Shown here: positions 8,479 to 61,688 of the stretch, in pieces | Position numbering within the stretch: the stretch's first letter is position 1 | Layout of the letters: every line of letters begins with the position of its first letter | Assembly: GCA_001725415.1 (NCBI GenBank) | Contig: MEGH01000012.1 | Coordinates: 83,619 to 147,618 of the forward strand | DNA: 64,000 bases | DNA from: Pseudonocardia sp. SCN 73-27 | GTDB taxonomy: Bacteria; Actinomycetota; Actinomycetes; Mycobacteriales; Pseudonocardiaceae | Direction of reading: 5' to 3' | Translations under genes and position numbers: made by a program | The notes under the pieces: generated by a model | The model's database searches: none | Seen by the model: the letters and a program-made list of their open reading frames with translations, nothing else | What the model was told of the DNA's origin: nothing

Positions 8479-8504
8479 GTGTCCGCACGGCGCCGCCGGG
8501 GTAC
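8479..8504 (+). promoter_or_regulatory. SigB/F-class promoter, antiporter gene
   Basis: GTGT-N16-GGGTAC, with the -10 ending 9 nt before the GTG start at 8514. This predicts a transcript beginning at or next to the start codon. No ribosome site is seen upstream of that GTG, in keeping with leaderless translation. Confidence 0.6.
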
Positions 8505-8513
8505 GGCGCGGGG

Positions 8514-10115
8514 GTGCCCGCACAGGTCCTGCTCGTCGTCGCCGTGCTCGCGGCCGGGGTGGTCGTCGGCCGGCTCGTGAGCAGGCGGACCGGCCTGCCC
8601 GAGGCCGCGGTCTTCGTCGTGCTCGGCGTCGGTGCGGCGTTCGTGCCCGGTGTGGAGGCGTTGCGCCTGTCACCGGACTTCGTGCTGCTCGTCTTCCTGC
8701 CCCCGCTGATCTACTACGCCGCGTTCTTCAGCGACCTCCGCGAGACCGTCCGCCACCTGGTCCCGGTGGTCGGGCAGGCCGTCGGGCTCGTCGTCGCCAC
8801 GGCATTCGCCGTGGCCGCGACCCTGCTCGCGGTGTTCCCAGAGGTCGGGTGGGCGGCGGCGATCGCGTTCGGGGCGGCCGTGGCCCCGCCGGACCCCGTG
8901 GCGGCGGGCTCGGTGTTGCGCCGCTTCGGTGTCCCGCGCCGGATGGTCACCGTGCTCGAGGCGGAAGGGCTGGTCAACGACGGCGTCGCCCTGACGCTGT
9001 TCGCGGTGGCCGTCGGCGCGGTCGGTGCGGCGACGACGACGGGTGAGGTGGGGCTCGCGCTGCTGATCGAGGTGGGCGGCGGGATCGGGTTCGGGCTCGT
9101 CGTCGGGATCGTCGCGGCGGCGGTGCGGCGCCGGATCCGCGACATCGCGGTGCAGGTGCTGCTGTCGCTGCTGGTGCCGTACCTGGCGTTCGTGCCGGCG
9201 CAGCAGGTGCACGCGTCCGGGGTGCTCGCGACCGTCACCGCCGCCGTCTGGCTGGGGGTGCGCGGCCGAGGTCTCGTGGAGCCGACCGTCCGGCTGCACG
9301 CCGAGACGTTCTGGCGGGTGCTCAACACCCTGCTCGTCGCGCTGCTGTTCGTGCTGCTCGGCGTCCAGGTACCGACGGTGTTCCGCGCCGTCGAGGGCCA
9401 GGCCGTCTGGCCCGTCGTCGGCGCGGCGGTGGCGGTCACGGTGGTCGTGGTCGTCGTCCGGCTCGCGTGGGTCATGGGGGCGGCGCCGCTGGTGTCGTTG
9501 CTGCGGGTGCGCGAGGAGTTCGTCGGCGGGATGCCGTGGCGGGAGCGGCTCGCGCTCGGCTGGTGCGGCCCGCGCGGCGCCGTCTCGCTCGCGGTCATCC
9601 TGTCGCTGCCGTTGACGACCCCCGACGGCGCGCCCTTCCCGCAGCGTGACCTGCTGGTGTTCCTGACCGTCGTCGTCGTGCTGGTGACGCTCGTCGGGCA
9701 GACGCTGCCCCTCGGTCTGCTGCTGCGCGCCCTGCGGTTGCGGCCGAGCTCGCGGGAACGCACCGAGTCGGCGCGGGCCCGGCAGGCGGCCGTCGACGCG
9801 GCGTTGCGCGAGCTCGACGGCGTCGCCGAGCGGGAGGAGCCGGTGCCGCCCGGGGTGGACGAGCTGCGGCAGGTGCTGGAGCTGCGTCGTGACCATCTGC
9901 GTGACCGCCTGGACGAGTCGGCCGACGACCGGGGTGACGGATCGGGTGGGGACCGGTCGTTCGACGTGCGGGACCTGCGGCTGCGGCTGATCGAGGTCGA
10001 GCGGGCGGCGCTGCGCCGGATGCACGACGAGGGCGAGATCGGGCGGGCGACGATGGTCGAGATCAGTCAGGAGCTCGACCTCGACGAGACGCAGTTACGG
10101 AACCGCAGGCACTGA
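8514..10115 (+). CDS. CPA1-family Na+(K+)/H+ antiporter
   Basis: 533 residues: about 12 TM helices to residue ~415, then a hydrophilic C-terminal tail with coiled-coil character (REDH-rich, ~120 residues). The ion-site region AFGAAVAPPDPVAAGSVLRR followed by EAEGLVNDGVALTLF is the CPA1 signature (the ND pair coordinates the cation). Drives proton-coupled sodium or potassium export for pH/osmotic balance. The SigB/F-like promoter immediately upstream fits osmotic-stress control. The start is the GTG at 8514, with no good ribosome site. Confidence 0.92.
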   Translation: MPAQVLLVVAVLAAGVVVGRLVSRRTGLPEAAVFVVLGVGAAFVPGVEALRLSPDFVLLVFLPPLIYYAAFFSDLRETVRHLVPVVGQAVGLVVATAFAVAATLLAVFPEVGWAAAIAFGAAVAPPDPVAAGSVLRRFGVPRRMVTVLEAEGLVNDGVALTLFAVAVGAVGAATTTGEVGLALLIEVGGGIGFGLVVGIVAAAVRRRIRDIAVQVLLSLLVPYLAFVPAQQVHASGVLATVTAAVWLGVRGRGLVEPTVRLHAETFWRVLNTLLVALLFVLLGVQVPTVFRAVEGQAVWPVVGAAVAVTVVVVVVRLAWVMGAAPLVSLLRVREEFVGGMPWRERLALGWCGPRGAVSLAVILSLPLTTPDGAPFPQRDLLVFLTVVVVLVTLVGQTLPLGLLLRALRLRPSSRERTESARARQAAVDAALRELDGVAEREEPVPPGVDELRQVLELRRDHLRDRLDESADDRGDGSGGDRSFDVRDLRLRLIEVERAALRRMHDEGEIGRATMVEISQELDLDETQLRNRRH

Positions 10116-10237
10116 CGTCCGCGCCCGCGGTCGAACCGGGGGAGAGCGCAGGGTGAGGCCCGGCGATGGCGGCACGAAGATCGTGAAGACGCCGGTGAGT
10201 CCGATGCTTTCGGCCAGCCCTCGCGGGATGCGTCACG

Positions 10238-10270
10238 ATGAGTGGCGCGGGACTCATTGCACTGAGTGCA
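10238..10270 (+). promoter_or_regulatory. Clustered dyads, likely TetR operator
   Basis: ATGAGT (10238), ACTCAT (10252) and TGAGT (10263) form two overlapping inverted repeats, ATGAGT-N8-ACTCAT and ACTCA-N6-TGAGT. Within the second, TGCAC-TGA-GTGCA is itself a perfect dyad. The cluster ends 23 bp before the tetR GTG, the normal place for autorepression. Confidence 0.6.
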
Positions 10271-24597: not shown

Positions 24598-25299
24598 ATG
24601 GCGAACATCGACGTCGACCAGCTCACGGCGAGCCTGCGAGGGCTCGAACCGGCAGACGACGCCGACCTCGCCGGCGCCCTCGACGCCGTCGTCGAGGCCT
24701 GCGTGGACCTGTTCGGGGTGACGGGCGCGGGACTGATGGTGGCCGACGAGCAGGACTCGCTGCGCTACGCGGCGGCGACCGACGGCCCGGGCCGCGTCCT
24801 CGAGGAGGTGCAGACGGAGACGGGGCAGGGGCCCTGCGTCGACACGTTCGTCCACGGGCGGCCCGTCGAGACGACCGACCTCGCGACGGAGCAGCGTTGG
24901 CCCGCGAGCAGGCAGGTCCTCGTCGAGCACGACGTGTACTCGGTGCTGGGGGTTCCGGTCCGGCTGGGCGGGGTCACCGTCGGCTCGCTCGACGTCTACC
25001 GCGACCGGCCGCACGAGTGGGACGACTCGGAACGCTCGGCGCTCGTCGGCTACTCCGGGGCGCTGGAGACGACCCTGCGGTCGCTGCTGGCAGCCCGCCG
25101 GTCCGACGAGCTCGCCCGGCAGCTGCAGTACGCGCTCGACTATCGCGTCGTGATCGAGCGGGCCGTCGGCTACCTGATGGCGGCCCGGCGCACCGACGCG
25201 GTCACGGCCTTCGACCTGTTGCGCCGCACCGCCCGCAACCGCAGGCGCAAGGTCGCCGACGTGGCCCGGGACCTGCTCGACAGCGGGTCACTGCCCTGA
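24598..25299 (+). CDS. GAF-ANTAR antitermination regulator
   Basis: 233 residues with AGGAG upstream. GAF domain about 20-165 (VTGAGLMVADEQDSLRYAAA; TETGQGPCVDTFVHGRPV), ANTAR about 175-230 (DYRVVIERAVGYLMAARRT...AFDLLRRTARNRRRKVADVA). The ANTAR helix keeps the Arg/Lys-rich face that contacts RNA. Divergent from its paralogue at 23640, and they share the same GAF pocket motif, so the two probably arose by duplication. Confidence 0.9.
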   Translation: MANIDVDQLTASLRGLEPADDADLAGALDAVVEACVDLFGVTGAGLMVADEQDSLRYAAATDGPGRVLEEVQTETGQGPCVDTFVHGRPVETTDLATEQRWPASRQVLVEHDVYSVLGVPVRLGGVTVGSLDVYRDRPHEWDDSERSALVGYSGALETTLRSLLAARRSDELARQLQYALDYRVVIERAVGYLMAARRTDAVTAFDLLRRTARNRRRKVADVARDLLDSGSLP

Positions 25300-25303
25300 G
25301 CGG

Positions 25304-25328
25304 GGGTAACGCCGCGGCGCCCGGGTAG
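25304..25328 (+). promoter_or_regulatory. SigB/F-class promoter, LLM oxidoreductase gene
   Basis: GGGT-N15-GGGTAG, with the -10 ending 8 nt before the ATG at 25337; predicts a leaderless mRNA. The site lies in the 37-bp gap after the GAF-ANTAR gene. Confidence 0.45.
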
Positions 25329-26344: not shown

Positions 26345-26355
26345 CCCGGGGTGGT

Positions 26356-26385
26356 GCGCGGGGGCCGTGGGCCCGGCCCCCGCGC
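26356..26385. terminator. Strong bidirectional hairpin
   Basis: Perfect 11-bp stem GCGCGGGGGCC / GGCCCCCGCGC with an 8-nt loop between the convergent LLM oxidoreductase and glycosyltransferase genes. Confidence 0.7.
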
Positions 26386-26465
26386 GGGGAAGGTGCCGGC
26401 TCGAAGGGGAGGTCGTTGCCGACACCGGGATCGGATCGGCCGCCTCCTACCCGTCCGCGCGCGGT

Positions 26466-27305
26466 TCACACCTGTGTGACGGCAACCTTCTCCCAGTCGT
26501 CGGTGACGGGGTCGTGGCGGACGAGGCCCGCCGCCGCGAACGCCCCCAGCCAGCCCGTCATCGGCCATCGGCCCCACCGCCTGCGGAAGAGCGCGCCGTT
26601 GCGCAGGATGTCGTCGAGGTGCTCGACGGGCGGGTCGCTCACGGGATGGTGCTGGTGGAAGGCCGTGGCGCCGCCGACCCAGCGCAGCCCGACCCCGGCC
26701 GCGGCGGCCGCGTACCCGAAGTCGGTGTCCTCGCCGCCGTAGCCGCGGTAGCCCTCGTGGAACCCGCCGAGGCGGATCCACGCCGGCGTCGTCACCGCGA
26801 ACGACAGCGACCAGAACAGGTCGTGGTCGTCGGTGTCGACACAGGTGCCGTCGGCGGGGGCGGGCCGGGCCGGGTGCGGCGCGGCGCTCGTGGCCAGCGC
26901 GTCGGCCCGGTAGCCGCCCTCGGGCGGCGGCGGCAGGTACGCGACGGGCCCGCACAGCAGCCGCTCGCCGCCGCCGGCGGCGGCCTCGCGGTAGCGACGG
27001 AACAGTGCCGGGCCGGGGATGCAATCGACGTCGAGGAACACCAGCAGCTCGGCGCCCCGGGCGATCGCGGCGGCGGCGCCGACGTTGCGCGCGTGCGCGA
27101 CCGGCAGCCCGGTGCCGTCGGAGCGCACGGCCACGGTACGGCTGTCGGGCAGCGGGCAGCCGGCCACGATCGTCGCGATCACGGGGTCGTCGACGGCGAC
27201 GACGACCCGGGTCGCGGGTGGCTCCTCGACGTCGGCGAGCCCGGCCTGCTGGCGGCGCAGGTGCCCGTGCCGGCCGTGCGCCACGGTGATCAGGCCGACG
27301 TGCAC
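26466..27305 (-). CDS. Family-2 glycosyltransferase
   Basis: 279 residues. GTG at 27305 inside the preceding gene (16-base overlap) with GGACGGG upstream. GT-A features: LPVAHARNVGAAAAIARGAELLVFLDVDC carries the DxD (DVD) metal site for nucleotide-sugar binding; GGFHEGYRGYGGEDTDFGYA is the galactosyltransferase-type acceptor loop (GGEDxD). Last gene of a four-gene operon of sugar transferases. Confidence 0.85.
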   Translation of the reverse strand: MHVGLITVAHGRHGHLRRQQAGLADVEEPPATRVVVAVDDPVIATIVAGCPLPDSRTVAVRSDGTGLPVAHARNVGAAAAIARGAELLVFLDVDCIPGPALFRRYREAAAGGGERLLCGPVAYLPPPPEGGYRADALATSAAPHPARPAPADGTCVDTDDHDLFWSLSFAVTTPAWIRLGGFHEGYRGYGGEDTDFGYAAAAAGVGLRWVGGATAFHQHHPVSDPPVEHLDDILRNGALFRRRWGRWPMTGWLGAFAAAGLVRHDPVTDDWEKVAVTQV

Positions 27306-30557: not shown

Positions 30558-30583
30558 ATACCCAGGGCCCGGCCCGGGGAAAC
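30558..30583 (-). promoter_or_regulatory. Canonical SigF/B promoter of the glycosyltransferase operon
   Basis: Minus strand GTTT-N16-GGGTAT, an exact match to the mycobacterial SigF consensus. Places the transcription start about 50 nt before the first glycosyltransferase gene. Confidence 0.7.
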
Positions 30584-30712: not shown

Positions 30713-31132
30713 ATGGACGCGCAGCTGTGCCTGGGGGTGGACGCGCAGCCGGCGGAGCTCGGTCTGGTACGTCGTGCGGTGCGGACGTGGCTCGCCGCCC
30801 AGGCGTGGCCGTCGTCGGCGGCCGACGCGCTCGTCTTCGCGGTGGTGGAGGCGTTCGGCAACAGCGTGGAGCATGCCTACCGGGGCCTCGACACGGGCCG
30901 GGTGCACATCGACCTGGCCGTGGAGCCGGCGGGTTCGGGACGGCGTCGGGCGACCGCCGTCGTCACCGACACAGGGCGGTGGCGGGACGGAGCCCACTGC
31001 ACGGAGGGCCGCGGCAACGGGCTCGCGCTGATCCGGTCGATCGCCCGCGGGCTGACCGTGACGACGGACGCGGCGGGGACCCGTGTCACCGTGTGGACCG
31101 ACGACGAGGACGTGCTGTCCGTGGAGGGCTGA
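30713..31132 (+). CDS. RsbW-like anti-sigma / serine kinase (HATPase)
   Basis: 139 residues, the whole being a GHKL ATPase domain: N-box EAFGNSVEHAYRG, G1 box VTDTGRWRD, G2 GRGNGLALIRSIA, then TDAAGTRVTVWT. These single-domain kinases bind a SigB/F-type sigma factor or phosphorylate a STAS partner. It is immediately upstream of such a sigma gene (31327), so it is probably that factor's antagonist (inference). Confidence 0.88.
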   Translation: MDAQLCLGVDAQPAELGLVRRAVRTWLAAQAWPSSAADALVFAVVEAFGNSVEHAYRGLDTGRVHIDLAVEPAGSGRRRATAVVTDTGRWRDGAHCTEGRGNGLALIRSIARGLTVTTDAAGTRVTVWTDDEDVLSVEG

Positions 31133-31176: not shown

Positions 31177-31201
31177 GGTTGACGACGGCCGAGCCGGGTA
31201 C
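31177..31201 (+). promoter_or_regulatory. SigB/F-class promoter before the first sigma gene
   Basis: GGTT-N15-GGGTAC, an exact fit to GNNT-N14/16-GGGTA(C/T), 126 nt upstream of the sigma start. Suggests positive autoregulation. The shared 20-bp leader motif lies downstream of it at 31282, which would place that motif in the transcript. Confidence 0.65.
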
Positions 31202-31326: not shown

Positions 31327-32223
31327 GTGTACCCAGCCACCACGTCGGTCCCGGAACAGCGTCGTCCGCGGGCCGCACCCGTCGAGGACGGGCGGGACGC
31401 CACCGGCGCAACGGTCGGGACGCATCCCGGTCCGAGCGAGTACGCCGACCAGATGCCGTTGCTGCACCGGTACGCGGAGCTCGACGAGAACGATCCGGAA
31501 CGGGCCGAGCTGCGGTCCCGCCTGGTCCTCGCCTTCCTGCCGGTGGTCGAGCACCTCGCGCGACGCCATGGTCACGGGTACCGCGTGGCCAGCCACGACG
31601 ATCTCGTGCAGACCGGAACCGTCGGTCTGATCACCGCGATCGACCGATGGGATCCTGCGCGGGCGAAGGGTGAGTTCCTCGGATACCTGATCCCGTGCGT
31701 GCGCGGTGAGATCCTGCGCTACTTCCGTGACCGGACGTGGTCGATGCGGGTCCCGCGCAGGTTGAAGGAGCTCGGCGTCTCGATCGGGAAGGCGTCCGGC
31801 CCCTTGGCGCAGCAGCTCGGCCGCGCACCCCGGCCCAGCGAGCTGGCGGCCTACCTCCAGGTCGACCGCGAAGAGGTCATCGAGGCACTCGCGGCTGCCG
31901 CCGACCGGCACGCCGCACCGCTGTACCCCGTCGACGACGAGGATTCGGGGGAGGAGCGCGTCGGCACCGTCGAGAAGGCCTACGAGCAGGTCGAGTACGA
32001 GCTCGCGCTCCGGCCGCTGATCGACGAGCTGCCCGAGCGCGAGCGGCGCATCCTGCGGCTGCGGTTCTTCGAGGACCAGTCGCAGTCGCGGATCGCGGCG
32101 CAGGTGGGAGTGTCCCAGATGCACGTGTCGCGGCTGCTCACACGCACCCTGCGCCGGCTGCGGGAGGGGCTCACCGCAGACGACCCGTCGGCAGCGCGAG
32201 CCGCGAAGAGTGCGCGCGGCTGA
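31327..32223 (+). CDS. SigB/SigF/SigG-subfamily sigma factor
   Basis: 298 residues, GTG start with GAGGAG upstream. Region 2: HDDLVQTGTVGLITAIDRWD and RYFRDRTWSMRVPRRL (the -10 reading helix); region 3 APRPSELAAYLQV; region 4 LPERERRILRLRFFEDQSQSRIAAQVGVSQMHVSRLL. This is the general-stress/sporulation sigma subfamily recognising GTTT / GGGTA promoters. Closely related to the second sigma at 44618. An RsbW-like kinase precedes it. Confidence 0.95.
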   Translation: MYPATTSVPEQRRPRAAPVEDGRDATGATVGTHPGPSEYADQMPLLHRYAELDENDPERAELRSRLVLAFLPVVEHLARRHGHGYRVASHDDLVQTGTVGLITAIDRWDPARAKGEFLGYLIPCVRGEILRYFRDRTWSMRVPRRLKELGVSIGKASGPLAQQLGRAPRPSELAAYLQVDREEVIEALAAAADRHAAPLYPVDDEDSGEERVGTVEKAYEQVEYELALRPLIDELPERERRILRLRFFEDQSQSRIAAQVGVSQMHVSRLLTRTLRRLREGLTADDPSAARAAKSARG

Positions 32224-32514: not shown

Positions 32515-32540
32515 ATACCCACAGTGACCACCACGCAACC
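32515..32540 (-). promoter_or_regulatory. SigB/F-class promoter of the 56-residue gene
   Basis: Minus strand GGTT-N16-GGGTAT. One of the best matches in the window to GNNT-N14/16-GGGTA(C/T). Confidence 0.65.
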
Positions 32541-35960: not shown

Positions 35961-36324
35961 CGCCGACCGCATGAGCCGCGTCGACCCGCCCGAGGGGCGA
36001 ACCGACACGTGTCCCCCTCCGGCGGCCGCGAGCGTCCTGATCAGCGTCGGTCCCGCCGGCTTCGCGACTCCCCGGGGCACCGCTCCACGAAGCGGCCGCC
36101 GATTTGGATCATGAATTGCCGTGGCGTCGCGGTCCCCGGCCCCTCGGACTTGTCGATCCCCCGGACGGCGGCGTGTCGCAGCGGCCGATCGAGTCGGAGA
36201 TTGCGACGGGAGGCTGAAATTCTCGAATTCTCGTCCGAAACGCGTAACGCGCAGCCCTGCCCGGGTAATTCGCTCGGTGTCGCCTCCTCGCCCGGGGTGG
36301 GGCGGCTCAAGGGAGGGTCAACGT
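35961..36324. other. Gap upstream of gas-vesicle region
   Basis: 364 bases with no supported gene. The AT-richer patch near 36210-36270 contains GCGT-N17-GGGTAA (36242-36268), a weak SigB/F-like promoter 56 nt before the gene at 36325. Confidence 0.4.
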
Positions 36325-37011: not shown

Positions 37012-37036
37012 GTGTGCGCATCGAGAGGCCGGGTAT
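37012..37036 (+). promoter_or_regulatory. SigB/F-class promoter of the gas-vesicle operon
   Basis: GTGT-N15-GGGTAT, 100 nt upstream of the first gvp-cluster ATG. It fits the SigB class fully and is the only such site before the operon. Confidence 0.65.
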
Positions 37037-43267: not shown

Positions 43268-43305
43268 GAATCCGCCGCTCGCGCAATGACGCGAGCGGCG
43301 GATTC
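43268..43305 (+). terminator. 16-bp perfect hairpin closing the gas-vesicle operon
   Basis: GAATCCGCCGCTCGCG / CGCGAGCGGCGGATTC, perfect 16-bp arms with a 6-nt loop, 25 bp after gvpK. The strongest hairpin in the window; no U-run. Confidence 0.85.
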
Positions 43306-43398
43306 GGGTCGACCGACCCTCTGCGAACTTTCCACGGCCGACGGCGGTCACCTACCCTCGGCCGTGTTCGGTAAACCTTCCGGAATTCCGGCGGCCGA

Positions 43399-44468: not shown

Positions 44469-44494
44469 CTACCCGTTTGGTCGTCACGCCAGGC
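44469..44494 (-). promoter_or_regulatory. SigB/F-class promoter, glycosylase-like gene
   Basis: Minus strand GCCT-N16-GGGTAG; the -10 ends 10 nt before the ATG at 44458. Leaderless geometry like 8479, 25304, 49655, 52514 and 59267. Confidence 0.5.
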
Positions 44495-44617: not shown

Positions 44618-45460
44618 GTGCCCACGAACGTTGCCGCGTCCGCGGTCGACCATGCCGTGCTCGACCATGCCGTGCTCGACCATGCCGACCATGCCGACGG
44701 CCCGAGCGAGTACGCCGACCAGATGCCGTTGCTGCACCGCTTCGCGGCGCTGCCCGACGGCGACCCCGAGCGCGCGGACCTGCGGTCCCGGCTGGTGATC
44801 GCGTTCCTGCCGGTGGTCGAGCACCTCGCACGACGGCACGGCACCGGTCTCGTCGGTCACGACGACCTGGTGCAGACGGGGACCATCGCGCTGATATCGG
44901 CGATCGACCGCTGGGACCCGGAGCGGGCGCAGGGGGAGTTCCTCGGCTACCTGATCCCGTGCGTGCGCGGGGAGATGCTGCGGTACTTCCGCGACCGGAC
45001 ATGGTCGATGCGGGTGCCGCGGCGGCTCAAGGACCTCGGCGTCGCGATCGGGAAGGCGACCGGTCCGCTGACGCAGGAGCTGGGTCGCGCGCCGCGGCCG
45101 AGCGAGCTCGCCACCCGCCTCGGCGCCGACCGCGAGGAGATCATCGAGGCGCTCGCGGCGCGGGCCGAGCGCTACGCGGCCCCGCTGTTCCCCGTCGACG
45201 ACGACGCCGACGGCGGTGCCCGGTCCGAGACGGTCGGCGCCGTCGAGGAGGCCTACAGCCGCGTCGAGTACCGGGAGGCCTTGCGGCCGCTGATCGAGGG
45301 CCTGCCCGAGCGGGAACGGCGGATCCTGCTGCTGCGGTTCTTCGGCGACCAGTCGCAGTCGCAGATCGCCGAGCAGATCGGGGTCTCGCAGATGCACGTG
45401 TCCCGGCTGCTCGCGAAGACCCTGCTGCGGCTGCGCGACGGGTTGTCCGCCGGCGGGTGA
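44618..45460 (+). CDS. SigB/SigF/SigG-subfamily sigma factor, paralogue
   Basis: 280 residues from a GTG with GGGGAGGGG upstream. Nearly the same region-2 string as the first sigma (FRDRTWSMRVPRRLKDLGVAIGKATGP) and region 4 LPERERRILLLRFFGDQSQSQIAEQIGVSQMHVSRLL. The N-terminus differs and has a short AVLDHAVLDHADHAD repeat. The two are clear duplicates and may read the same promoters; no anti-sigma gene sits beside this one. Confidence 0.95.
   Translation: MPTNVAASAVDHAVLDHAVLDHADHADGPSEYADQMPLLHRFAALPDGDPERADLRSRLVIAFLPVVEHLARRHGTGLVGHDDLVQTGTIALISAIDRWDPERAQGEFLGYLIPCVRGEMLRYFRDRTWSMRVPRRLKDLGVAIGKATGPLTQELGRAPRPSELATRLGADREEIIEALAARAERYAAPLFPVDDDADGGARSETVGAVEEAYSRVEYREALRPLIEGLPERERRILLLRFFGDQSQSQIAEQIGVSQMHVSRLLAKTLLRLRDGLSAGG
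44648..44695 (+). repeat. Short tandem repeats in the sigma N-terminus
   Basis: Two 15-bp units GACCATGCCGTGCTC followed by two 9-bp GACCATGCC units, encoding DHAVLDHAVLDHADHAD. Absent from the paralogue at 31327. Confidence 0.8.
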
Positions 45461-45709: not shown

Positions 45710-45735
45710 GGTTGTGCCGCACCGGCTCCGGGTAG
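45710..45735 (+). promoter_or_regulatory. SigB/F-class promoter of the acyl-CoA dehydrogenase operon
   Basis: GGTT-N16-GGGTAG, 85 nt upstream of the ATG at 45821. The -10 is followed by AGCCCCCTCG, vaguely like the shared leader element. Confidence 0.5.
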
Positions 45736-49654: not shown

Positions 49655-49679
49655 GGTTCGCCGGGTCCCGGCGGGGTAG
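49655..49679 (+). promoter_or_regulatory. SigB/F-class promoter of the two membrane genes
   Basis: GGTT-N15-GGGTAG; the -10 ends 9 nt before the ATG at 49689 and no ribosome site is present, so leaderless. Confidence 0.55.
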
Positions 49680-49688: not shown

Positions 49689-50153
49689 ATGGGACTTCTG
49701 CTGAGAGGTGTCGCCGCCGGTGCCGCGGGGACCACCGCGCTGAACACCGCCACCTACCTCGACATGCTCGGGCGCGCCCGGCCGGCCGGCACGAGCCCGG
49801 AGGAGACGGTGCGCCGCCTCGTCGAGCGCCGTGACCCGACGCTGCTCGGCCGGGACGAGGACGCCGCGGGCAACCGGCGCAGCGCCCTGGGGGCACTCAT
49901 GGGCATCGCGACGGGCACACTCACCGGGGCGGTCCTCGGCGCGGTGCGTCCACGCCTGGGGCGCAACGGGTTCGCCGCCGCCGCGTTGCTCGCCGCGGTA
50001 CTGGCCAATGCGGGGAGCGTACTGCCGATGTGGGCACTCGGCGTGAGCGATCCGCGGACCTGGAGCGCCGCGTCGTGGGTGTCCGACGCGCTGCCGCACC
50101 TCGCCTACGGGCTCGTCACCGCCGCCGCCCTCGAGCCCGGGGAGGCCCGGTGA
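49689..50153 (+). CDS. Membrane protein of unknown function
   Basis: 154 residues. Small hydrophobic helices at the N-terminus (LLRGVAAGAAGTTALN), near residue 75-95 (LGALMGIATGTLTGAVLGAV) and around 100-150. Polar TSPEETVRRLVERR between. No family recognised. Overlaps the next membrane gene by 4 bases (GTGA), so the pair likely forms one complex. Confidence 0.7.
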   Translation: MGLLLRGVAAGAAGTTALNTATYLDMLGRARPAGTSPEETVRRLVERRDPTLLGRDEDAAGNRRSALGALMGIATGTLTGAVLGAVRPRLGRNGFAAAALLAAVLANAGSVLPMWALGVSDPRTWSAASWVSDALPHLAYGLVTAAALEPGEAR

Positions 50154-51509: not shown

Positions 51510-52504
51510 CGGTCCTCCTCACGGACCACGTCACGGGGGTCCTTGTCGTCGCGCAGGCCCAGGTAGCGGGGATGGCGCAGGCGTCCGTCACGGGTCCACT
51601 CGGTGAACCCGACCTGCGCGACCAGCTCCGGGCGCAGCCAGTGCGCCCCCTTCGCGGGCACCGGCCCCGCGAAGGGGGAGTCGTCGGCGGCGAGGTCGTC
51701 GAACCGGGCACGCAGCGTGCGCAGCAGCCGGTCGTCGAAACCGGTGCCGACCTTGCCCGCGTAGCGCAGCCGGCCGTCGTCGAAGACACCGACGAGCAGC
51801 GCCCCGAACGACTGCCGCGACCCCGCAGGGTCGGTCCAGCCGCCGACGACGAACTCCTGGCCGCGCACGCACTTGAACTTCAGCCACTGGTCGGAGCGCC
51901 GCCCGGGCCGGTAGACGCCGTCGGCGCGCTTCGCGATGAGGCCCTCCCAGCCTCGCGCGCAGGCGTCGGCGAGGAACGTCTCTCCGTCGGTGTTGCGGTG
52001 CTGCGAGAGCCGGATCGGGCCGCCGGCGTCGACAGCCGCGCGCAGCAGCGCCTTGCGCCGCCGCAGCGGCAGCCCGGTCACGTCGCAGCCGTCGACCACC
52101 ACCACGTCGAACAGGTAGAGGTACACCGCGATCCCGGTGGCGCGGGCGCGGTCGGGGTCGGTCAGCCCGAGCCGTCCCTGCAGCCGCGAGAAGCTGGTCT
52201 GCGCGCCGTCGAACGCGACGATCTCCCCGTCGGCGACCAGCGGCGCGCCACCCGCGAGTGCCTCGACGAGCTCCGGATAGCCGCCGGTCATGTCCTTGTG
52301 GTTGCGGGAGAACAGATGCGTGCCGTCGCCGTCGCGGACGACGACCGCGCGGACGCCGTCGAGCTTGCGTTCGAAGACCCAGCCGGGGTCGGAGAAGTGG
52401 TCGGCGGTGAGCGTGGCGAGCATCGGGGCGACGAACCCGGTCTCGCCGGGGCGCAGCAGCTCCCGTTCGGCGCTGGTCAGGACGTCGAGCGGGCTGCCGG
52501 ACAT
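51506..52504 (-). CDS. ligD-like: ATP-dependent DNA ligase (LigD ligase type)
   Basis: 332 residues. Motif I ERKLDGVRAV carries the adenylated Lys; VADGEIVAFDG (motif III), EGLIAKR (IV) and DQWLKFKCVRGQEFVVGGWT (V/VI) follow, then an OB-fold C-terminus. NHEJ-type ligases of this size join nicks after end-processing; Ku is not in the window. A GATT-N16-GGGTAT element ends 9 nt before the ATG, predicting a leaderless SigB/F-driven transcript that also carries the polymerase gene. Confidence 0.92.
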   Translation of the reverse strand: MSGSPLDVLTSAERELLRPGETGFVAPMLATLTADHFSDPGWVFERKLDGVRAVVVRDGDGTHLFSRNHKDMTGGYPELVEALAGGAPLVADGEIVAFDGAQTSFSRLQGRLGLTDPDRARATGIAVYLYLFDVVVVDGCDVTGLPLRRRKALLRAAVDAGGPIRLSQHRNTDGETFLADACARGWEGLIAKRADGVYRPGRRSDQWLKFKCVRGQEFVVGGWTDPAGSRQSFGALLVGVFDDGRLRYAGKVGTGFDDRLLRTLRARFDDLAADDSPFAGPVPAKGAHWLRPELVAQVGFTEWTRDGRLRHPRYLGLRDDKDPRDVVREEDR

Positions 52505-52513: not shown

Positions 52514-52539
52514 ATACCCCGGCGCCACCGGATCCAATC
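52514..52539 (-). promoter_or_regulatory. SigB/F-class promoter of the ligase-polymerase operon
   Basis: Minus strand GATT-N16-GGGTAT, the -10 ending 9 nt before the ligase start. Confidence 0.6.
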
Positions 52540-52669: not shown

Positions 52670-54274
52670 GTGCAACCCGCCGAGGCATACGGCGAGCGGC
52701 TGCGCCGGCTGCAGGCACTGACGGACTCCGACCTGGCGCGGCTCGGCGTCGACGACCTGCTCGACGTCGTCCTCGAACGCGTCCGTGACCTGCTGTCGGT
52801 CGACACCGGCGCCGTGCTGCTGCTCGACCCGTCGGGCGCCTACCTCGTCGCGACGTCCGCGCTCGGGCTGGAGGAGGAGACCCGCCAGGGCGTCCGCATC
52901 CCCGTGGGCCGGGGCTTCGCCGGCCGGGTCGCCCAGGAACGACGCGCGGTGACGATCCCCGAGGTCGACCACGGCAACGTCCTGAACCCGATCCTGCGGG
53001 AGAAAGGCATCCGCTCGCTGCTGGGTGTGCCGCTGTGTGTGGGGGACGACGTCATCGGGGTCCTGCACGTCGGGACGCTCGCCCCGCGCGCGTTCACCGA
53101 CGACGACGCCGAGCTGCTGCAGCTCGCCGCCGACCGCATCGCGCTCGCGACCCGCGCCCGGATGACCGTGGCCGAACGGGCGGCGGCGTCGGCGCTGCAG
53201 CGCAGCCTGCTGCCGGGCCTGCTGCCCGACGTCCCGGGGCTGGAGTTCGCGGCGCGGTACGTGCCCGGCGGGGGCGGGGACGTCGGCGGCGACTGGTACG
53301 ACGTGTTCGCCCTGCCCTCGGGGCAGCTGTGCGTGGTGGTGGGCGACGTCGTCGGCCGCGGTCTGCCCGCGTCGGTGGCGATGGGCAGGCTGCGCAGTGC
53401 CGTCCGCGCGTACGCGCTGGTGAGCGAGGACCCGGCCGAGATCCTGCGCCGCCTCGACGAGCAGGTCCGCCACTTCGAACGCGACGTCATGGCGACGGTG
53501 CTGTGCGCGATCGTCGACGCGGCCCAGCACACCGTCCGGATCTCCTCGGCCGGGCACCCACCGCCGGTCCTGGCCGCCCCGGGACGCGCCGGCGAGCTCG
53601 TCGAGGTGCCGACGGACTTGCCCGTCGGCCTGCCCCGGCCCCGCAGCAGGCACTCCGTGACGGTCGACCTGCCGGTCGGCGGCGGGCTCGTGCTCTACAC
53701 CGACGGCCTGGTGGAGCGCCGCACCGAGCCGCTCGACGAGGGCCTCGGCCGGCTCACCGCCGCGGTCGGCCCGGGCCCGGCGGAGGCCGTGTGCGCCGCG
53801 GTGATGGGCCGGATGATCGGCGGGGATCACGCCGTCGACGACGTGGCGCTGCTCGTCGTGATGCGTACGTCCCCGGCGCCCGCTGGCTCGTTGCGGCTGG
53901 TCGAGCCCGCGGTTCCGCAGTCGTTGCGGGTGGTGCGGCACGCCGTCCGGACCTACCTCGGCGCTGTCGGTGCGACCGCCGAGGACGTCGCCGACGTCGT
54001 CCTCGCGGTGGGGGAGGCGGCCGCCAACGTGGTCGAGCACGCCTACGGGCCCGCGGGCGGTGCCTTGGAGGTGGTGCTGCACCGCGACGGGCCCCGGCTG
54101 TCGATCACGGTTGCCGACACCGGCTCGTGGCGGGAGGCGCGGGGGATCAACCGTGGCCGGGGCACGACGATGATCGCCGCCCTGGTCGACGACGTCCGCA
54201 TCGACCGCGACACTGCGGGGACGCGCGTCGTGATGACGAGGACGATCGGTGACGAACGAGGGGAGGACCGATGA
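52670..54274 (+). CDS. GAF - SpoIIE phosphatase - HATPase fusion
   Basis: 534 residues, GTG with GAGGAGGAGG upstream. GAF ~18-160 (FAGRVAQERRAVTIPEVD); PP2C/SpoIIE ~185-400 with metal Asp residues in DVGGDWYDVF, VVGDVVGRGLPAS and DDVALLVV; C-terminal RsbW-type HATPase ~410-530 (GEAAANVVEHAYG, VADTGSW, NRGRGTTMIAALVDDV). One chain carries both the phosphatase that activates STAS proteins and a kinase/anti-sigma module. With the STAS gene it forms a partner-switching unit for SigB/F-type control. Confidence 0.93.
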   Translation: MQPAEAYGERLRRLQALTDSDLARLGVDDLLDVVLERVRDLLSVDTGAVLLLDPSGAYLVATSALGLEEETRQGVRIPVGRGFAGRVAQERRAVTIPEVDHGNVLNPILREKGIRSLLGVPLCVGDDVIGVLHVGTLAPRAFTDDDAELLQLAADRIALATRARMTVAERAAASALQRSLLPGLLPDVPGLEFAARYVPGGGGDVGGDWYDVFALPSGQLCVVVGDVVGRGLPASVAMGRLRSAVRAYALVSEDPAEILRRLDEQVRHFERDVMATVLCAIVDAAQHTVRISSAGHPPPVLAAPGRAGELVEVPTDLPVGLPRPRSRHSVTVDLPVGGGLVLYTDGLVERRTEPLDEGLGRLTAAVGPGPAEAVCAAVMGRMIGGDHAVDDVALLVVMRTSPAPAGSLRLVEPAVPQSLRVVRHAVRTYLGAVGATAEDVADVVLAVGEAAANVVEHAYGPAGGALEVVLHRDGPRLSITVADTGSWREARGINRGRGTTMIAALVDDVRIDRDTAGTRVVMTRTIGDERGEDR

Positions 54275-54588
54275 CGGACGCAGGGGTGGCGTCGCGCGGC
54301 GCGGATCCAGGGCGCCTCGAGATCGCGCTCTCGGGGGAGATCGACCTGCAGAACGCCGGTGCGGTGGAACGGCAGCTCGACGACCTCGTCTCCAACACGA
54401 CGGAGTCGGTGACGATCGACCTGACGCGGCTGACCTATCTCGACAGCGCTGGCCTGCGGGTGTTGTTCGGGCTGGCCTCGCGACTGGAGCTGTTGCAGGT
54501 GCACCTGGAGCTGCGGGTACCCCGGGGCTCGGTCGTGCGCCGCGCCGTCGAGGTGTCGGGGCTCGGCGAGGTCGTCGCGATCGACTGA
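54271..54588 (+). CDS. STAS anti-anti-sigma factor
   Basis: 105 residues, ATGA overlap with the phosphatase gene. LEIALSGEIDLQNAGAVERQL and SVTIDLTRLTYLDSAGLRVLF: Ser in LDSAG is the phosphorylated residue of SpoIIAA/RsbV. In its unphosphorylated form it would sequester an RsbW-like kinase and release a sigma factor. Its kinase may be the fused HATPase or the one at 30713. Confidence 0.94.
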   Translation: MTDAGVASRGADPGRLEIALSGEIDLQNAGAVERQLDDLVSNTTESVTIDLTRLTYLDSAGLRVLFGLASRLELLQVHLELRVPRGSVVRRAVEVSGLGEVVAID

Positions 54589-56914: not shown

Positions 56915-56939
56915 GTGTGACCCGCACGGAGTGGGGTAG
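56915..56939 (+). promoter_or_regulatory. SigB/F-class promoter of the ADH gene
   Basis: GTGT-N15-GGGTAG, 45 nt upstream of the ADH GTG, between divergent TetR and ADH genes. Confidence 0.55.
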
Positions 56940-56984: not shown

Positions 56985-58118
<1,134 letters not shown>

Positions 58119-59165: not shown

Positions 59166-59266
59166 GGTCAGGACCGGCTCACGACGTCGACGGGTACTGC
59201 TGCGAGCCGAGCAGCGCCGCCAGGTGTGCGACGTCGGCGGTCAACGGGGCCGTACCCGGCACGCGG

Positions 59267-59292
59267 GCGTGAAACGCCGTCGCGCGGGGTAC
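59267..59292 (+). promoter_or_regulatory. SigB/F-class promoter of the MTHFR-like gene
   Basis: GCGT-N16-GGGTAC; the -10 ends 10 nt before the ATG at 59303, which has no ribosome site. Confidence 0.55.
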
Positions 59293-59302: not shown

Positions 59303-60307
59303 ATGGCGACAGGACCCGCGGCGCAGTGTCCGAAGAGGATGCGGTTCGGACCGTGCGGCGGCGTCCGCGCCGACCTGTCCTGCGAGGTCGGGCCGGTGCG
59401 CTGCCCGTTCGGGACCCTCGAGGACCCGGTCCCGTGGAACGGTCCGGAGCCACCGCGCCGCCCGACGCCTGCGCTGCTGGCGGCGGCACCGGTCGTCCTC
59501 ACCGACCTGACGACACCGTCTTTCGACCGCCGCGGCCTCGCACGGGTCGTCACCACCTTGGCGGGCACCTGCGACGGCCTGCTCGTCGGTGAGCACCACA
59601 ACCGCCCCGACTTCCCACCGACGCAGATGACCGCGCTCGTCCGCGAGGCCGGGGGAGCGCCCGTCGTGACCCTGACCTGCCGCGACCGCAACCGCGTCGT
59701 CCTCGACCAGGAGCTCGCCGGGCTCGCCGAGGAGGGTCCGGCCGCGGTGTTCTGCGCGACGGGTGACGCCCGCGCCACCGGGGTGCGGCCCGAGGTGACG
59801 CAGGTGTTCGACCTCGACGGCACCACGCTCGCCGCACACGCTGCCGCGGCCGGACTGGCCGTCGGGGTCCCGGAGTCGCCGGGGGCGCCACCGCTGCGGC
59901 TGCGACCGGGGCGCCTCGCGCAGAAGCAGTGCGCAGGTGCGCAGTTCGCGGTGCTCAACCACGTGTCCGGCCCGGCGCGGCTGGCCGTGTTCGCCGGTCG
60001 GGCCCGCGCCGCCGGGGCGACGTTGCCGCTGGTCGCGGGGGTCGCCGTCTACACCGACGAACGGTCGGCGCGGGTGCTCGCCGCGTTCCCGGGTCTGCAT
60101 CTCGACCCCGACCGCATCGGCACCGTGCTCGGGGCGCCCGACCCGGTCGAGGCCGGGATCGCCGAGGCGGTCGAGCAGGCCCGGGCGCTGCTGGCCGTCG
60201 ACGGCGTCGTCGGGGTGAACCTGTCGGGCCTCGCGTCGGCGAAGGGACCGGCCGAGGGCGCCGCGGTGAAGGCGGCCGTGGGCCGGGCGCTGAAGGACGC
60301 GGCGTGA
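59303..60307 (+). CDS. Methylenetetrahydrofolate-reductase-like protein with MTHFR_C motif
   Basis: 334 residues. The N-terminal CPKRMRFGPCGG then CEVGPVRCPFG is the MTHFR_C-type Cys motif (CPKxM...GPCGG), normally seen at the C-terminus or as a separate protein; here it leads. The remainder (~55-330) is a TIM-barrel half resembling MTHFR: TQMTALVREAGGAPVVTLTCRDRNR, CAGAQFAVLNHVSG and VVGVNLSGL. Possibly a flavin- or folate-linked reductase of one-carbon metabolism. It forms an operon with a methyltransferase (GTGA overlap). Confidence 0.8.
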   Translation: MATGPAAQCPKRMRFGPCGGVRADLSCEVGPVRCPFGTLEDPVPWNGPEPPRRPTPALLAAAPVVLTDLTTPSFDRRGLARVVTTLAGTCDGLLVGEHHNRPDFPPTQMTALVREAGGAPVVTLTCRDRNRVVLDQELAGLAEEGPAAVFCATGDARATGVRPEVTQVFDLDGTTLAAHAAAAGLAVGVPESPGAPPLRLRPGRLAQKQCAGAQFAVLNHVSGPARLAVFAGRARAAGATLPLVAGVAVYTDERSARVLAAFPGLHLDPDRIGTVLGAPDPVEAGIAEAVEQARALLAVDGVVGVNLSGLASAKGPAEGAAVKAAVGRALKDAA

Positions 60308-61140
60308 GCGGGCCCGGTGCGGCCGAGCCGATGGACGCCGAGTTCGACGTCATGCCCCGCTGGGTCGCCGAGGCCGTCGCCACCCTCGGGACCGGCCACG
60401 CCGTGCCCGCGGCGTGCCGGGGCAGCGTCGGCCCTGCCGGGCTGGCCTGGCTCGCCGAGCACACCCACGTCGGTCCGGGCACCGTGCTCGTCGACGTCGG
60501 CGGCGGCATGGGGGGTCCCGCCGCGTGGGCGCGACAGGAGTGCGGCGCGGCGCCCGTCGTCGTCGAACCCCAGCCCGGCGCGTGCGCGGCCGCCCACCGC
60601 ATGTTCGACCTACCCGTCGTCGTCGCCACCGGTACGGCCCTCCCGGTCGCCGACGACGCCGCCGCGGCCGTGTGGTGCCTCGGCGTCCTCTGCACGACGA
60701 CGGCGAAGGCCCGGCTGCTGCGCGAGCTGCGCCGGATCGTCGCCCCCGGCGGCCTGCTCGGGCTCTACGCCCTCGTCGCCCGCGGTGAGGTCGTCGACCC
60801 GCCGGAGGGCAACGAGTTCCCGACCGACGTCGAGGTCGCAGCCCTGCTCACCGCCGCAGGCCTCGATGCCCGGCACGCCCTCGACGTCGACGGGCTGCCG
60901 GACGAACCACGCGACTGGGCCGACCGCGCCGACGCCGTCGACGACCTCGTCCACGCCCGCCACGGCGACGACCCGTCATGGCGGCGGATGCAGGAGCAGG
61001 AGGCTCGGCTCGCCCGGCTCATGCGGTCCGGCGCGATCGCGGCCCGGCTCGTCGTCGCCCGCAGGCCCGGGCCCGAGGGCGGTCCGGTCAGTCGAGGCGG
61101 TGCCGCACCACCAGCGGGTACACCAGCCACAACCCCGTGA
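60304..61140 (+). CDS. SAM-dependent methyltransferase
   Basis: 278 residues, GTG. Motif I VLVDVGGGMGGPAAWARQEC, post-motif VVVEPQPGACAAAHRMF and LGVLCTTTAKARLLRELRRIVAPGG are class I methyltransferase features. The substrate is not readable. Translational coupling to the MTHFR-like gene suggests shared one-carbon chemistry. Its 3' end overlaps the oppositely directed DUF6328 gene by 53 bp. Confidence 0.85.
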   Translation: MSGPGAAEPMDAEFDVMPRWVAEAVATLGTGHAVPAACRGSVGPAGLAWLAEHTHVGPGTVLVDVGGGMGGPAAWARQECGAAPVVVEPQPGACAAAHRMFDLPVVVATGTALPVADDAAAAVWCLGVLCTTTAKARLLRELRRIVAPGGLLGLYALVARGEVVDPPEGNEFPTDVEVAALLTAAGLDARHALDVDGLPDEPRDWADRADAVDDLVHARHGDDPSWRRMQEQEARLARLMRSGAIAARLVVARRPGPEGGPVSRGGAAPPAGTPATTP

Positions 61141-61591
61141 ACACCGCGAGCCCGCACGAGGCCGCGACGACGCCCGCGGCCGCGCCCAGGACGACGTCGA
61201 AGATCAGGTCCAGCACGGCGACGACCGCGAGCCCGAGCGTCCCCAGGCCGGCGATGGCGAAGACCTGACCCGCGGCGACGAGGGATGCGCGGGCGTGTTT
61301 GCGGAACAGCAGCCGGTGCAGCAGGACGGGCGCGATCAGCAGTGCGGTGGCGGCGATCGACAGCCCGAGCGCCACGAGGTAGACGATGCGCTGGTGGGCG
61401 AGCAGGTCGGGGAACCGGCTCTGGAACGGCACGGTCAGCAGCAGGCCGGTGAGCAGCTGCACGCCGGTCTGGGAGACGCGCAGCTCCTGCAGCAGGTCGT
61501 TCCAGTTGCGGTCGAGACGTTCGGTGTCGGTCTCGTCTCGCGCGGCCCGGTTCCACTCGGCGTCGGCGCGAAGATCGTCATCGGCGGCCAC
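61088..61591 (-). CDS. DUF6328-family membrane protein
   Basis: 167 residues, GTG with AAAGG upstream. RNWNDLLQELRVSQTGVQLLTGLLLTVPFQ is the DUF6328 signature, followed by four hydrophobic helices. Function of the family is not known. Its last 53 bases are antisense to the end of the methyltransferase gene, so mutations there would affect both proteins. Confidence 0.88.
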   Translation of the reverse strand: MAADDDLRADAEWNRAARDETDTERLDRNWNDLLQELRVSQTGVQLLTGLLLTVPFQSRFPDLLAHQRIVYLVALGLSIAATALLIAPVLLHRLLFRKHARASLVAAGQVFAIAGLGTLGLAVVAVLDLIFDVVLGAAAGVVAASCGLAVFTGLWLVYPLVVRHRLD

Positions 61592-61661
61592 GTCGGGACC
61601 TTTCGTCGTGCGCCGGGGCGGGCCTTCGCATGGTCGCACGAGACACGTCATCGCACCGGGC

Positions 61662-61688
61662 GGTTGCACCGACGCCCGCCCGGGGTAG
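61662..61688 (+). promoter_or_regulatory. SigB/F-like promoter of the SRPBCC gene
   Basis: GGTT-N17-GGGTAG; the spacing is one longer than usual. A normal GGCGGAGG ribosome site follows, so this transcript has a leader. Confidence 0.4.

Follow-up and report, generated by a model that had tools for sequence, protein, structure and literature searches.

A clustered SigB/SigF-type promoter set beside putative regulators in Pseudonocardia sp. SCN 73-27

Do the GGGTA boxes that recur through the final 64,000 nucleotides (hereafter the window) of a 147.6-kb Pseudonocardia contig (C12) mark a stress regulon gathered around its own sigma genes? The initial annotation had read GNNT-N15/16-GGGTA as a SigB/SigF-type promoter preceding twelve or more transcription units, and much of the locus as one general-stress and sporulation regulon island. 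We propose that the window is one of two neighbouring clusters holding a large share of a conserved SigB/SigF-type stress regulon beside its own regulators, and we give this reading a probability of about 0.85.

The motif has 20 matches on the two strands of the window, against a mean of 3.5 and a maximum of 10 in 200 dinucleotide shuffles, and 18 in its intergenic pieces, against a shuffle mean of 0.70 and a maximum of 3 (200 shuffles). By gene calls, 17 matches fall in 8,754 bp of intergenic DNA and 3 in 55,246 bp of genic DNA, while a background of 20 stretches of the same genome (394,778 bp) holds 5 in 43,662 bp and 12 in 351,116 bp, respectively; the intergenic density of the window is about 17-fold that of this 395-kb sample. 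An excess over shuffled and intragenic sequence, the check proposed in the initial annotation, is found for the window. We give counts from two gene callers because each made errors: the main one left the ligase gene 51515-52504(-) uncalled, along with several leaderless genes of the relatives, and the second, which yields 16 matches in 7,594 bp of window intergenic DNA versus 5 in 40,576 bp of background (Fisher p = 1.3e-9), mis-started the SpoIIE gene. Control motifs set against the same background gave p = 1.0 (GGGAT), 0.37 (GTGGA), 0.12 (CGGTA) and 0.12 (C..A box), CGGTA being mildly enriched relative to window genes (p = 0.025). Thirteen further first-round stretches outside C12, chosen partly around pattern hits, were excluded from the background; they hold 15 matches in 36,015 bp of intergenic and 14 in 214,951 bp of genic DNA. 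Since the motif was derived from the window itself, the window enrichment figures are partly circular; this does not apply to the sister cluster, to the relatives or to the start-codon geometry. Across the genome, 11 of the 29 matches to GNTT-N15-GGGTA lie on C12, which makes up 2.1% of it (binomial p about 1e-11, for a contig singled out because of the motif). Four exact patterns (GNTT/GNGT, N15/N16) have 183 matches outside C12, and their reversed controls have 184 in the whole genome; hence noise accounts for most such matches outside C12, and by itself the motif argues only weakly for any one site.

The window sites join a GNNT or GTTT -35 element to a GGGTA -10 element 14-17 nt away, as in SigB/SigF-type promoters. 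All 13 core sites of the initial annotation exist as GNNT-N15/16-GGGTA, and for 11 of them a credible gene on the same strand lies within 250 nt; with 61662 as the twelfth, its count of units was about right. Among its looser sites, 61662-61687 holds (N17), 49614(-) reads GTTT-N16-GGGCA and 45668(-) has no GGGTA. The predicted promoters, with the ligase gene, are:

8431..8455, minus strand: core site, GATT-N15-GGGTA, 108 nt upstream of a WhiB-like ORF (from 8322) whose frame seems to break
8479..8503, plus strand: core site, GTGT-N16-GGGTA, with the Na+/H+ exchanger gene 8514-10115 starting 10 nt downstream; leaderless geometry
25285..25327, plus strand: two overlapping GGGT-N15-GGGTA, the second (25304-25327, core site) ending 9 nt before the luciferase-like gene 25337-26344
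26448..26471, minus strand: orphan promoter GTGT-N15-GGGTA between convergent genes
30559..30583, minus strand: core site, GTTT-N16-GGGTAT, glycosyltransferase operon 30500-26466(-)
31177..31200, plus strand: core site, GGTT-N15-GGGTA, 126 nt upstream of sigma gene 1; kept in P. sulfidoxydans
32516..32540, minus strand: core site, GGTT-N16-GGGTA, with only a short minus-strand reading frame (~32479-32297) downstream
36242..36267, plus strand: GCGT-N17-GGGTA, 57 nt ahead of gene 36325-36768
37012..37035, plus strand: core site, GTGT-N15-GGGTA, gas-vesicle operon 37137-43242; P. dioxanivorans match at 97 nt
43353..43376, minus strand: orphan promoter GTTT-N15-GGGTA, facing the 3' end of the gas-vesicle operon
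44470..44494, minus strand: core site, GCCT-N16-GGGTA, 11 nt before gene 44458-43814(-); leaderless geometry
45710..45734, plus strand: core site, GGTT-N16-GGGTA, operon 45821-48887; match at 85-88 nt in three relatives
49655..49678, plus strand: core site, GGTT-N15-GGGTA, 10 nt before gene 49689-50153; leaderless geometry
51515..52504, minus strand: NHEJ-type ATP-dependent DNA ligase (TIGR02779, 271 bits, cut-off 227.75)
52515..52539, minus strand: core site, GATT-N16-GGGTA, 10 nt before the ligase gene ATG; leaderless geometry
56915..56938, plus strand: core site, GTGT-N15-GGGTA, 46 nt upstream of the zinc alcohol dehydrogenase gene 56985-58118
59253..59277, minus strand: motif match overlapping the 59291(+) site in a short palindrome
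59267..59291, plus strand: core site, GCGT-N16-GGGTA, 47 nt before gene 59339-60307; P. dioxanivorans match also at 47 nt
61662..61687, plus strand: GGTT-N17-GGGTA, 24 nt upstream of gene 61712-62149

Five of these were missing from the earlier list (25285-25308, 36242-36267, 26471-26448(-), 43376-43353(-) and 59277-59253(-)). Three intergenic sites, at 26448, 43353 and 59253, face the opposite strand; we treat the last as incidental, the alignments to P. dioxanivorans CB1190 and P. sulfidoxydans covering only the flanks of its palindrome. Ahead of the glycosyltransferase operon, the exact consensus GTTT-N16-GGGTAT is as first described, and orthologs of this operon have a promoter match in P. 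dioxanivorans, Pseudonocardia sp. N23 and P. sulfidoxydans. Luciferase-like orthologs in P. dioxanivorans, P. halophobica C31 and P. sulfidoxydans have theirs 10 nt upstream, and those of gene 36325-36768 at 49-56 nt in four relatives. The exchanger promoter recurs in P. sulfidoxydans and is missing at the P. kujensis and P. halophobica orthologs; likewise, the match for gene 61712-62149 lies 21 nt upstream in Pseudonocardia sp. N23 and 63 nt upstream in P. dioxanivorans, with none at its P. kujensis and P. halophobica orthologs. The operon 45821-48887 comprises a weakly acyl-CoA-dehydrogenase-like gene, a PIG-L/methyltransferase gene and a glycosyltransferase gene, and a primase-polymerase gene, 51509-50742(-), follows the ligase gene. 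Gene 44458-43814(-) has no match in Pfam or NCBIfam, and the short frame at ~32479-32297(-) is 57% identical to a P. sulfidoxydans stretch. Dps, first counted as a member, has the GGGCA variant only. A scan of window 25.2-33.0 kb for sigma-70 promoters found none.

These sites form part of a larger arrangement. With N14-17 allowed and the motif sought within 250 nt, 12 of 32 transcription-unit leaders bear it at window 8.4-61.8 kb and 10 of 31 at C12:0-38 kb, against 0 of 32 at C12:38-92 kb, a span that includes the window up to 8.4 kb, and 6 of 237 background leaders. The second cluster, at C12:0.5-36.8 kb, lies outside the window; the two span roughly 36 and 53 kb, and C12:37-92 kb is almost motif-free. 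The motif scan gave no intergenic site at window 8.6-25.2 kb either. The cluster is a regulon scattered among other genes: the clustering part of the island reading holds, and the regulon reaches beyond the window. As for sporulation, nothing in the analysis shows its control here.

The promoter class and its link to SigB-type regulators are supported; the regulator genes of the window are:

30713..31132, plus strand: RsbW-like HATPase_c_2 protein, putative anti-sigma factor (PF13581, 69.5 bits; far under the RsbW equivalog cut-offs)
31327..32223, plus strand: SigB/SigF-type sigma factor 1, 298 aa (232.9 bits to TIGR02980)
44618..45460, plus strand: SigB/SigF-type sigma factor 2, 280 aa (224.5 bits to TIGR02980)
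52670..54274, plus strand: GAF-SpoIIE-HATPase_c_2 protein, putative phosphatase with an RsbW-like domain, from domain matches
54271..54588, plus strand: STAS protein, putative anti-anti-sigma factor (TIGR00377, 55.3 bits, cut-off 53.45)

The two sigma factors are 75% identical, and both have sigma-70 regions 2, 3 and 4 above cut-off (PF04542, PF04539, PF04545). They match TIGR02980 over nearly its full profile (E 3.7e-69 and 1.4e-66) and narrowly miss its curated cut-off of 234.35, which is why we call them SigB/SigF-type and do not file them as members. On C12, the sister cluster adds three further SpoIIE proteins and a second RsbW-like protein; also on C12, a match to sigma region 3 at 32147, after an RsbW-like gene, was set aside as a third sigma gene: it is short (153 nt, 54% identity) and looks like a relic. 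Kinase-like, STAS and SpoIIE genes thus stand near the sigma genes, and the regulon is probably under partner-switching control, whose steps we deduce from the protein families. Under stress, the SpoIIE-type phosphatases would become active and dephosphorylate the STAS proteins, which would in turn free the SigB-type sigma factors from the RsbW-like proteins. The freed factors would then initiate at GNNT-N15/16-GGGTA ahead of the antiporter, luciferase-like, glycosyltransferase, gas-vesicle, ligase and alcohol dehydrogenase units, and ahead of one of the sigma genes, where the site at 31177..31200 points to putative positive autoregulation.

Whether the window pair are the chief readers of these promoters is a separate matter. 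The genome encodes seven SigB-type sigma factors with a near-identical recognition helix, from which sequence cannot tell which paralogue reads which promoter; the initial annotation was right about the two in the window, and an assignment of the promoters to these two does not follow from sequence. The five others (contigs C4, C20, C24, C45) are open frames, 48-60% identical to sigma factor 1, and retain SQMHVSRLL in region 4.2 (SQMHVS in one match that ends early); SigB homologues of S. coelicolor, according to the part of PMC8346170 used here, cross-recognise promoters. It is possible, if somewhat less than probable, that genuine promoters are read mainly by these factors elsewhere or redundantly by all seven; on the other hand, both window sigma genes sit within the cluster, and the promoter ahead of one of them belongs to this class and is kept in P. 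sulfidoxydans. That GGGTA is instead the site of another DNA-binding regulator, as the degenerate -35 half (GNNT) could suggest, we consider extremely improbable. Indeed, the partner is fixed at 15-16 nt, the next gene shares the strand in 123 of 133 intergenic matches (all stretches), and GGGTA shows a sharp peak 10 nt ahead of start codons, much as TANNNT peaks at 6-8 nt in the background (56 of 389 leaders). Of 823 called genes in these stretches, 35 have GGGTA at a distance of 9-11 nt upstream, versus 4 of 620 in the background; in 30 of those 35, G..T stands another 15-16 nt up. None of the other pentamers compared peaks at 9-11 nt except CGGTA (4 at 10 nt, 2 at 11 nt), which may be a variant -10. 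Counted without gene calls, an ATG or GTG follows at 9-11 nt in 56 of 133 intergenic sites (all stretches) and also in 6 of 26 sites inside called genes, so the geometry is not exclusive to intergenic DNA. From this spacing, many of the mRNAs seem to be leaderless, starting at the start codon or 1-2 nt ahead of it.

The relatives bear on a further alternative, recent acquisition of the cluster as a mobile island, which the almost motif-free C12:37-92 kb and a gene order different from that of CB1190 would fit. We judge it very unlikely: orthologs preceded by the same promoters are present in several Pseudonocardia, including on the CB1190 chromosome, and within collinear blocks, and G+C is high along the entire window (0.69-0.79 in 2-kb steps). 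CB1190 has a like cluster at 2.44-2.60 Mb, with 29 intergenic matches in 26,301 bp versus 3 in 32,060 bp of 12 background stretches; 7 of the 26 GNTT-N15-GGGTA matches of its chromosome fall within 102 kb, a width chosen after their positions were known and a number reached by 4 of 100,000 random placements. In ortholog pairs, the promoter is present in 28 of 36 where the C12 gene has one (and missing in 8), versus 12 of 172 otherwise; pairs with identity of 45% or less, not reciprocal best, or aligned over less than half of the query were dropped. The relatives' stretches were picked around sigma genes or pattern hits, and counts over them are not independent because several relatives are close to each other. 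A local promoter excess around a sigma gene is thus conserved across species, as expected of a clustered regulon.

Such clustering is already visible in M. smegmatis data, and the Pseudonocardia cluster extends a known kind, carrying the mycobacterial type of regulon cluster into this genus with a list of promoters and predicted start sites. In the part of PMC4694148 consulted, the SigF regulon (MSMEG_1758-1804 round sigF) has GTTT/GTGT-N15-17-GGGTA promoters, at least 14 of which, by our count, sit 8-11 nt before a start codon; as here, many regulon genes are grouped, with gaps, around sigF and an RsbW gene, and they also include a glycosyltransferase, a starvation-induced DNA-protecting protein, an antiporter and dehydrogenases. 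What differs in Pseudonocardia is that the two C12 clusters, at the sizes given above, contain two SigB-type sigma genes, that gas vesicles, a ligase of NHEJ type and a probable selenocysteine formate dehydrogenase are among their contents, and that the -35 is looser (GNNT). The GNNT -35 and multiple SigB homologues are shared with S. coelicolor, where the SigB/SigL/SigM promoters of the osmotic-stress group have this less conserved -35 (PMC8346170, in part). Its gas-vesicle operon has a SigB-regulated promoter (PMC5733086, in part); the one here is a single unit of a larger cluster. A search of open-licence literature for Pseudonocardia with sigma factor/gas vesicle or SigB regulon found no Pseudonocardia paper, which does not prove absence in print.

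Two orphan promoters may make small RNAs, 43353(-) being a weak lead. The latter, an exact consensus, was tried as an antisense control of the gas-vesicle operon and set aside: blastn and tblastn against the relatives' contigs gave no match for its region, identity to the syntenic P. sulfidoxydans gap is 0.46 over the full length, and, read by eye, an inverted repeat with 16-bp arms follows ~47 nt past GGGTA, which makes long antisense transcription look unlikely. C12:6090(-) has only short matches, of ~35 nt. Downstream of 26448(-), a promoter conserved in P. sulfidoxydans, lies a non-coding stretch with two hairpins (~26441-26352), the first with a CCUCCCC loop that could base-pair with Shine-Dalgarno sequences. 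It remains a candidate because long matches are few, its intergenic identity is ordinary and a stem pair is lost: 16 of 62 genomes of the genus match, only 2 of 62 at length (its own and one relative, with coordinates as in P. sulfidoxydans), the others over 23-52 bases; identity to P. sulfidoxydans is 0.77, within the 0.46-0.85 range of eight syntenic intergenic regions; and one stem pair is lost there. Rfam gave no family at gathering score in the window or in stretch L001. We regard as unlikely a wider picture in which a ~100-kb regulon, its clustering kept between species, would be unusually rich in leaderless units (up to ~40% of promoters one start-site distance from ATG/GTG) and include SigB-dependent small RNAs, at least 26441-26352(-) and perhaps 43353(-), stress then favouring leaderless mRNAs while the small RNA restrains leadered ones; leaderless richness, if true, would make the selection of leaderless messages by a stress sigma factor directly testable. 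By its layout, a SigF/SigB-type promoter and convergent genes, the 26448(-) candidate resembles SfdS/F6 of M. tuberculosis, a SigF-dependent small RNA between two genes described as convergent in the part of PMC8557902 used here.

The window (C12:83619-147618) forms the final 64 kb of C12, a 147,618-bp contig of a 6.95-Mb genome. Genes were called by codon usage, selected proteins were compared with Pfam and NCBIfam, and the SigB/SigF-type promoter motif GNNT-N15/16-GGGTA was scanned on both strands. The initial annotation had described a dense set of such promoters across the window; the scan recovered all 13 core sites and the one at 61662 at the positions claimed, while two of the looser sites, 45668(-) and 49614(-), lack GGGTA. 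The motif is present in the window beyond chance, i.e., 20 matches against a mean of 3.5 and a maximum of 10 in 200 dinucleotide shuffles, and 18 against a mean of 0.70 and a maximum of 3 when the intergenic pieces are shuffled in the same way (200 shuffles). The excess over intragenic DNA was also borne out, with 17 matches in 8,754 bp of intergenic and 3 in 55,246 bp of genic window sequence; the genome sample gave 5 in 43,662 bp and 12 in 351,116 bp, respectively. With a second gene caller, the intergenic counts were 16 in 7,594 bp (window) versus 5 in 40,576 bp (background; Fisher p = 1.3e-9). None of four control motifs reached significance relative to this background (p 0.12-1.0), and the control motif CGGTA was mildly enriched relative to the window genes (p = 0.025). 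Since the motif was derived from the window itself, the stronger tests are the extent of the cluster, its conservation, and the distance to start codons.

Along C12, the count of intergenic matches per 10 kb runs 4, 3, 3, and 3, drops to zero between 40 and 90 kb, and resumes with 2, 2, 4, 4, 2, and 3. The motif lies within 250 nt of 12 of the 32 unit leaders at 8.4-61.8 kb of the window and of 10/31 at C12:0-38 kb, versus 0/32 at C12:38-92 kb and 6/237 in the background. Genome-wide, GNTT-N15-GGGTA has 29 matches, 11 of them on C12 (binomial p ~1e-11); the corresponding figures are 35 and 5 for GNTT-N16, 63 and 7 for GNGT-N15, and 87 and 8 for GNGT-N16, a few sites falling under two patterns. 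Outside C12 the four patterns total 183, versus 184 across the entire genome for reversed control patterns, and matches elsewhere are thus mostly background. In the genome sample, intergenic DNA is nevertheless modestly richer in matches than genic DNA (0.11 vs 0.034 per kb), and five intergenic SigB-type sites form another, smaller cluster on C20 (C20:35001-55000, stretch L014), near another SigB-type sigma gene. Hence, much of the detectable regulon, though not the whole, is on C12. The units served by the promoters, and the two sigma factors of the window, are as follows.

Window, 31327-32223(+): sigma factor 1, SigB/SigF-type
Window, 44618-45460(+): sigma factor 2, SigB/SigF-type
Window, promoter units: Na+/H+ exchanger; luciferase-like protein; glycosyltransferase operon (four genes)
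Window, promoter units: SigB-type sigma gene; gas-vesicle operon; alcohol dehydrogenase
Window, operon: weakly acyl-CoA-dehydrogenase-like, PIG-L/methyltransferase, and glycosyltransferase genes
Window, promoter unit: NHEJ-type DNA ligase, then a primase-polymerase gene
Sister cluster, C12:0.5-36.8 kb, among others: formate-dehydrogenase-like operon; CinA; release-factor-like protein; alcohol dehydrogenase
Sister cluster, C12:0.5-36.8 kb: PAS-SpoIIE-HATPase-STAS protein, with an N14 site

Dps, previously counted in the regulon, has upstream only a variant, GTTT-N16-GGGCA. The formate-dehydrogenase-like gene (C12:649-3921, L001:649-3921) contains a single in-frame TGA at residue 188 (ARI-U-HSATVPGLG) and a SigB-type promoter 30 nt upstream. 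Its halves are called separately in contigs of four relatives too, SelA is encoded in the genome, and the product is probably a selenoprotein. A WhiB-like ORF at 8322-8158(-) covers 38 of 65 Pfam positions, its frame seemingly broken past the CxxC part.

Among the regulators attributed to the window, the RsbW-like, SpoIIE, and STAS proteins are present, as are the two SigB/SigF-type sigma factors, both of which score just below the TIGR02980 cut-off. For sigma factor 1, 11 of 12 related loci are from Pseudonocardia (54-84% identity) and one from Nocardioides (36%), on which basis the source was assigned to Pseudonocardia. Sigma factors 1 and 2 share 75% identity, and residues are mostly identical in the stretches that we take to be regions 2.4 and 4.2. 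In seven open-frame SigB-type paralogues of the genome, the recognition helix is nearly the same, SQMHVSRLL (for one of them, the match stops after SQMHVS), so that the acting sigma factor is not distinguishable from promoter sequence. In a report on S. coelicolor, passages on the SigB homologues describe cross-recognition of promoters, GNNT marking the osmotic group (PMC8346170). The joint presence of RsbW-like, SpoIIE, and STAS proteins makes partner switching the likely control of the regulon, its steps being read from the protein families. Behind an RsbW-like gene of the sister cluster, a sigma region-3 remnant (C12:32147-32272, L002:12147-12272) is probably what is left of a third such sigma gene, of SigB type, on C12. 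The clusters also contain, or are flanked by, three ANTAR-domain proteins, two of them with a GAF domain as well (23640-24335(-), 24598-25299, and L002:8605-9348).

The cluster is, as judged from sequence comparison, conserved among Pseudonocardia. In the P. dioxanivorans CB1190 chromosome, 7 of the 26 GNTT-N15-GGGTA matches fall within 102 kb, a width chosen after the match places were known, which 4 of 100,000 random placements reached. The region at 2.44-2.60 Mb has 29 intergenic matches in 26,301 bp, whereas 12 other stretches together have 3 in 32,060 bp, and orthologs of both C12 clusters lie near each other there, at ~54-75 and 88-128 kb of the stretch. Among stretches of other relatives, chosen around sigma genes or pattern matches and hence not a random sample, matches per kb are dense in P. 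kujensis (1.37), P. halophobica C53 (2.57) and C31 (2.30), and P. sulfidoxydans (1.74), and sparser in Pseudonocardia sp. N23 (0.51) and P. halophobica C48 (0.41). When a C12 gene has a promoter, its reciprocal ortholog has one too in 28 of 36 pairs, versus 12 of the 172 remaining pairs. Promoter-to-gene distances are often near-equal between orthologs (9/10, 57/56, 86/85, and 47/47 nt), and in alignments the -35 and -10 blocks of several promoters stand out amid diverged sequence, including those of the first sigma gene and of gene 36325; for others, among them 45821 and 61712, the boxes were not brought into register in every relative.

The start-codon distance supports a -10 role for GGGTA. 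When no -35 is required, 35 of the 823 called genes in the compared stretches have GGGTA 9-11 nt upstream (24 at exactly 10), versus 4/620 in the background, and for 30 of these 35 a G..T is found 15 or 16 nt upstream of the GGGTA. Leaving gene calls unused, 56 of 133 intergenic sites have a start codon 9-11 nt downstream (33 ATG, 23 GTG). At other offsets up to 30, ATG counts are 0-1 each (4 at offset 28) and GTG counts 0-3, the exceptions being offsets 0 (6), 1 (7), and 26 (5). C12 alone gives 13/30, sites within called genes 6/26, and background intergenic sites 1/5. Given this spacing, transcripts from such sites are probably leaderless; within the window, the sites concerned precede the genes for the exchanger, the luciferase-like protein, and the DNA ligase, as well as 44458(-) and 49689. 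In mycobacteria, leaderless transcription is described as common, with 24% of M. smegmatis transcripts (PMC6448022); the share of ~40% here is suggestive, its denominator not being comparable and related species being pooled. Of 389 background unit leaders (L030-L049 and CB1190 L070-L081), 56 are preceded by a TANNNT that ends 6-8 nt away, a clear leaderless signal of housekeeping-type promoters; the GGGTA hexamer lies ~3 nt farther from the start.

A parallel is already known from M. smegmatis and its SigF regulon: many MSMEG_1758-1804 genes around sigF are SigF-dependent, and at least 14 rows of the SigF table give positions 8-11 nt before start codons (PMC4694148). The motif is the same, and the Pseudonocardia cluster thus belongs to an already-known kind, larger and with other cargo. 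We found no prior description of such a cluster in Pseudonocardia in searches of an open-licence library, which does not prove absence in print.

For 123 of the 133 intergenic matches, the next gene is on the same strand. Eighteen orphan sites (opposite strand or >250 nt) were listed, several with an ATG ~10 nt downstream, and these are genes missed by the gene caller. The 26448(-) promoter lies between convergent genes, and P. sulfidoxydans retains both its boxes (-35 and -10) and the sequence downstream, a conservation not exceptional for that genome pair. The non-coding stretch after it (26352-26471(-) with the promoter included), also found in P. sulfidoxydans, would form a candidate RNA, placed at 26441-26352(-), with two hairpins and a CCUCCCC loop; both counterparts fold into the same hairpins (z -3.46 and -3.60), a slightly longer piece gives z -2.91, and the element occurs at length in only 2/62 genus genomes. 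A SigF-dependent small RNA of M. tuberculosis has flanking genes described as convergent (PMC8557902), a likeness in layout only. At 43243-43398, an exact SigB-type consensus faces the 3' end of the gas-vesicle operon, with an inverted repeat (16-bp arms) ~47 nt downstream.
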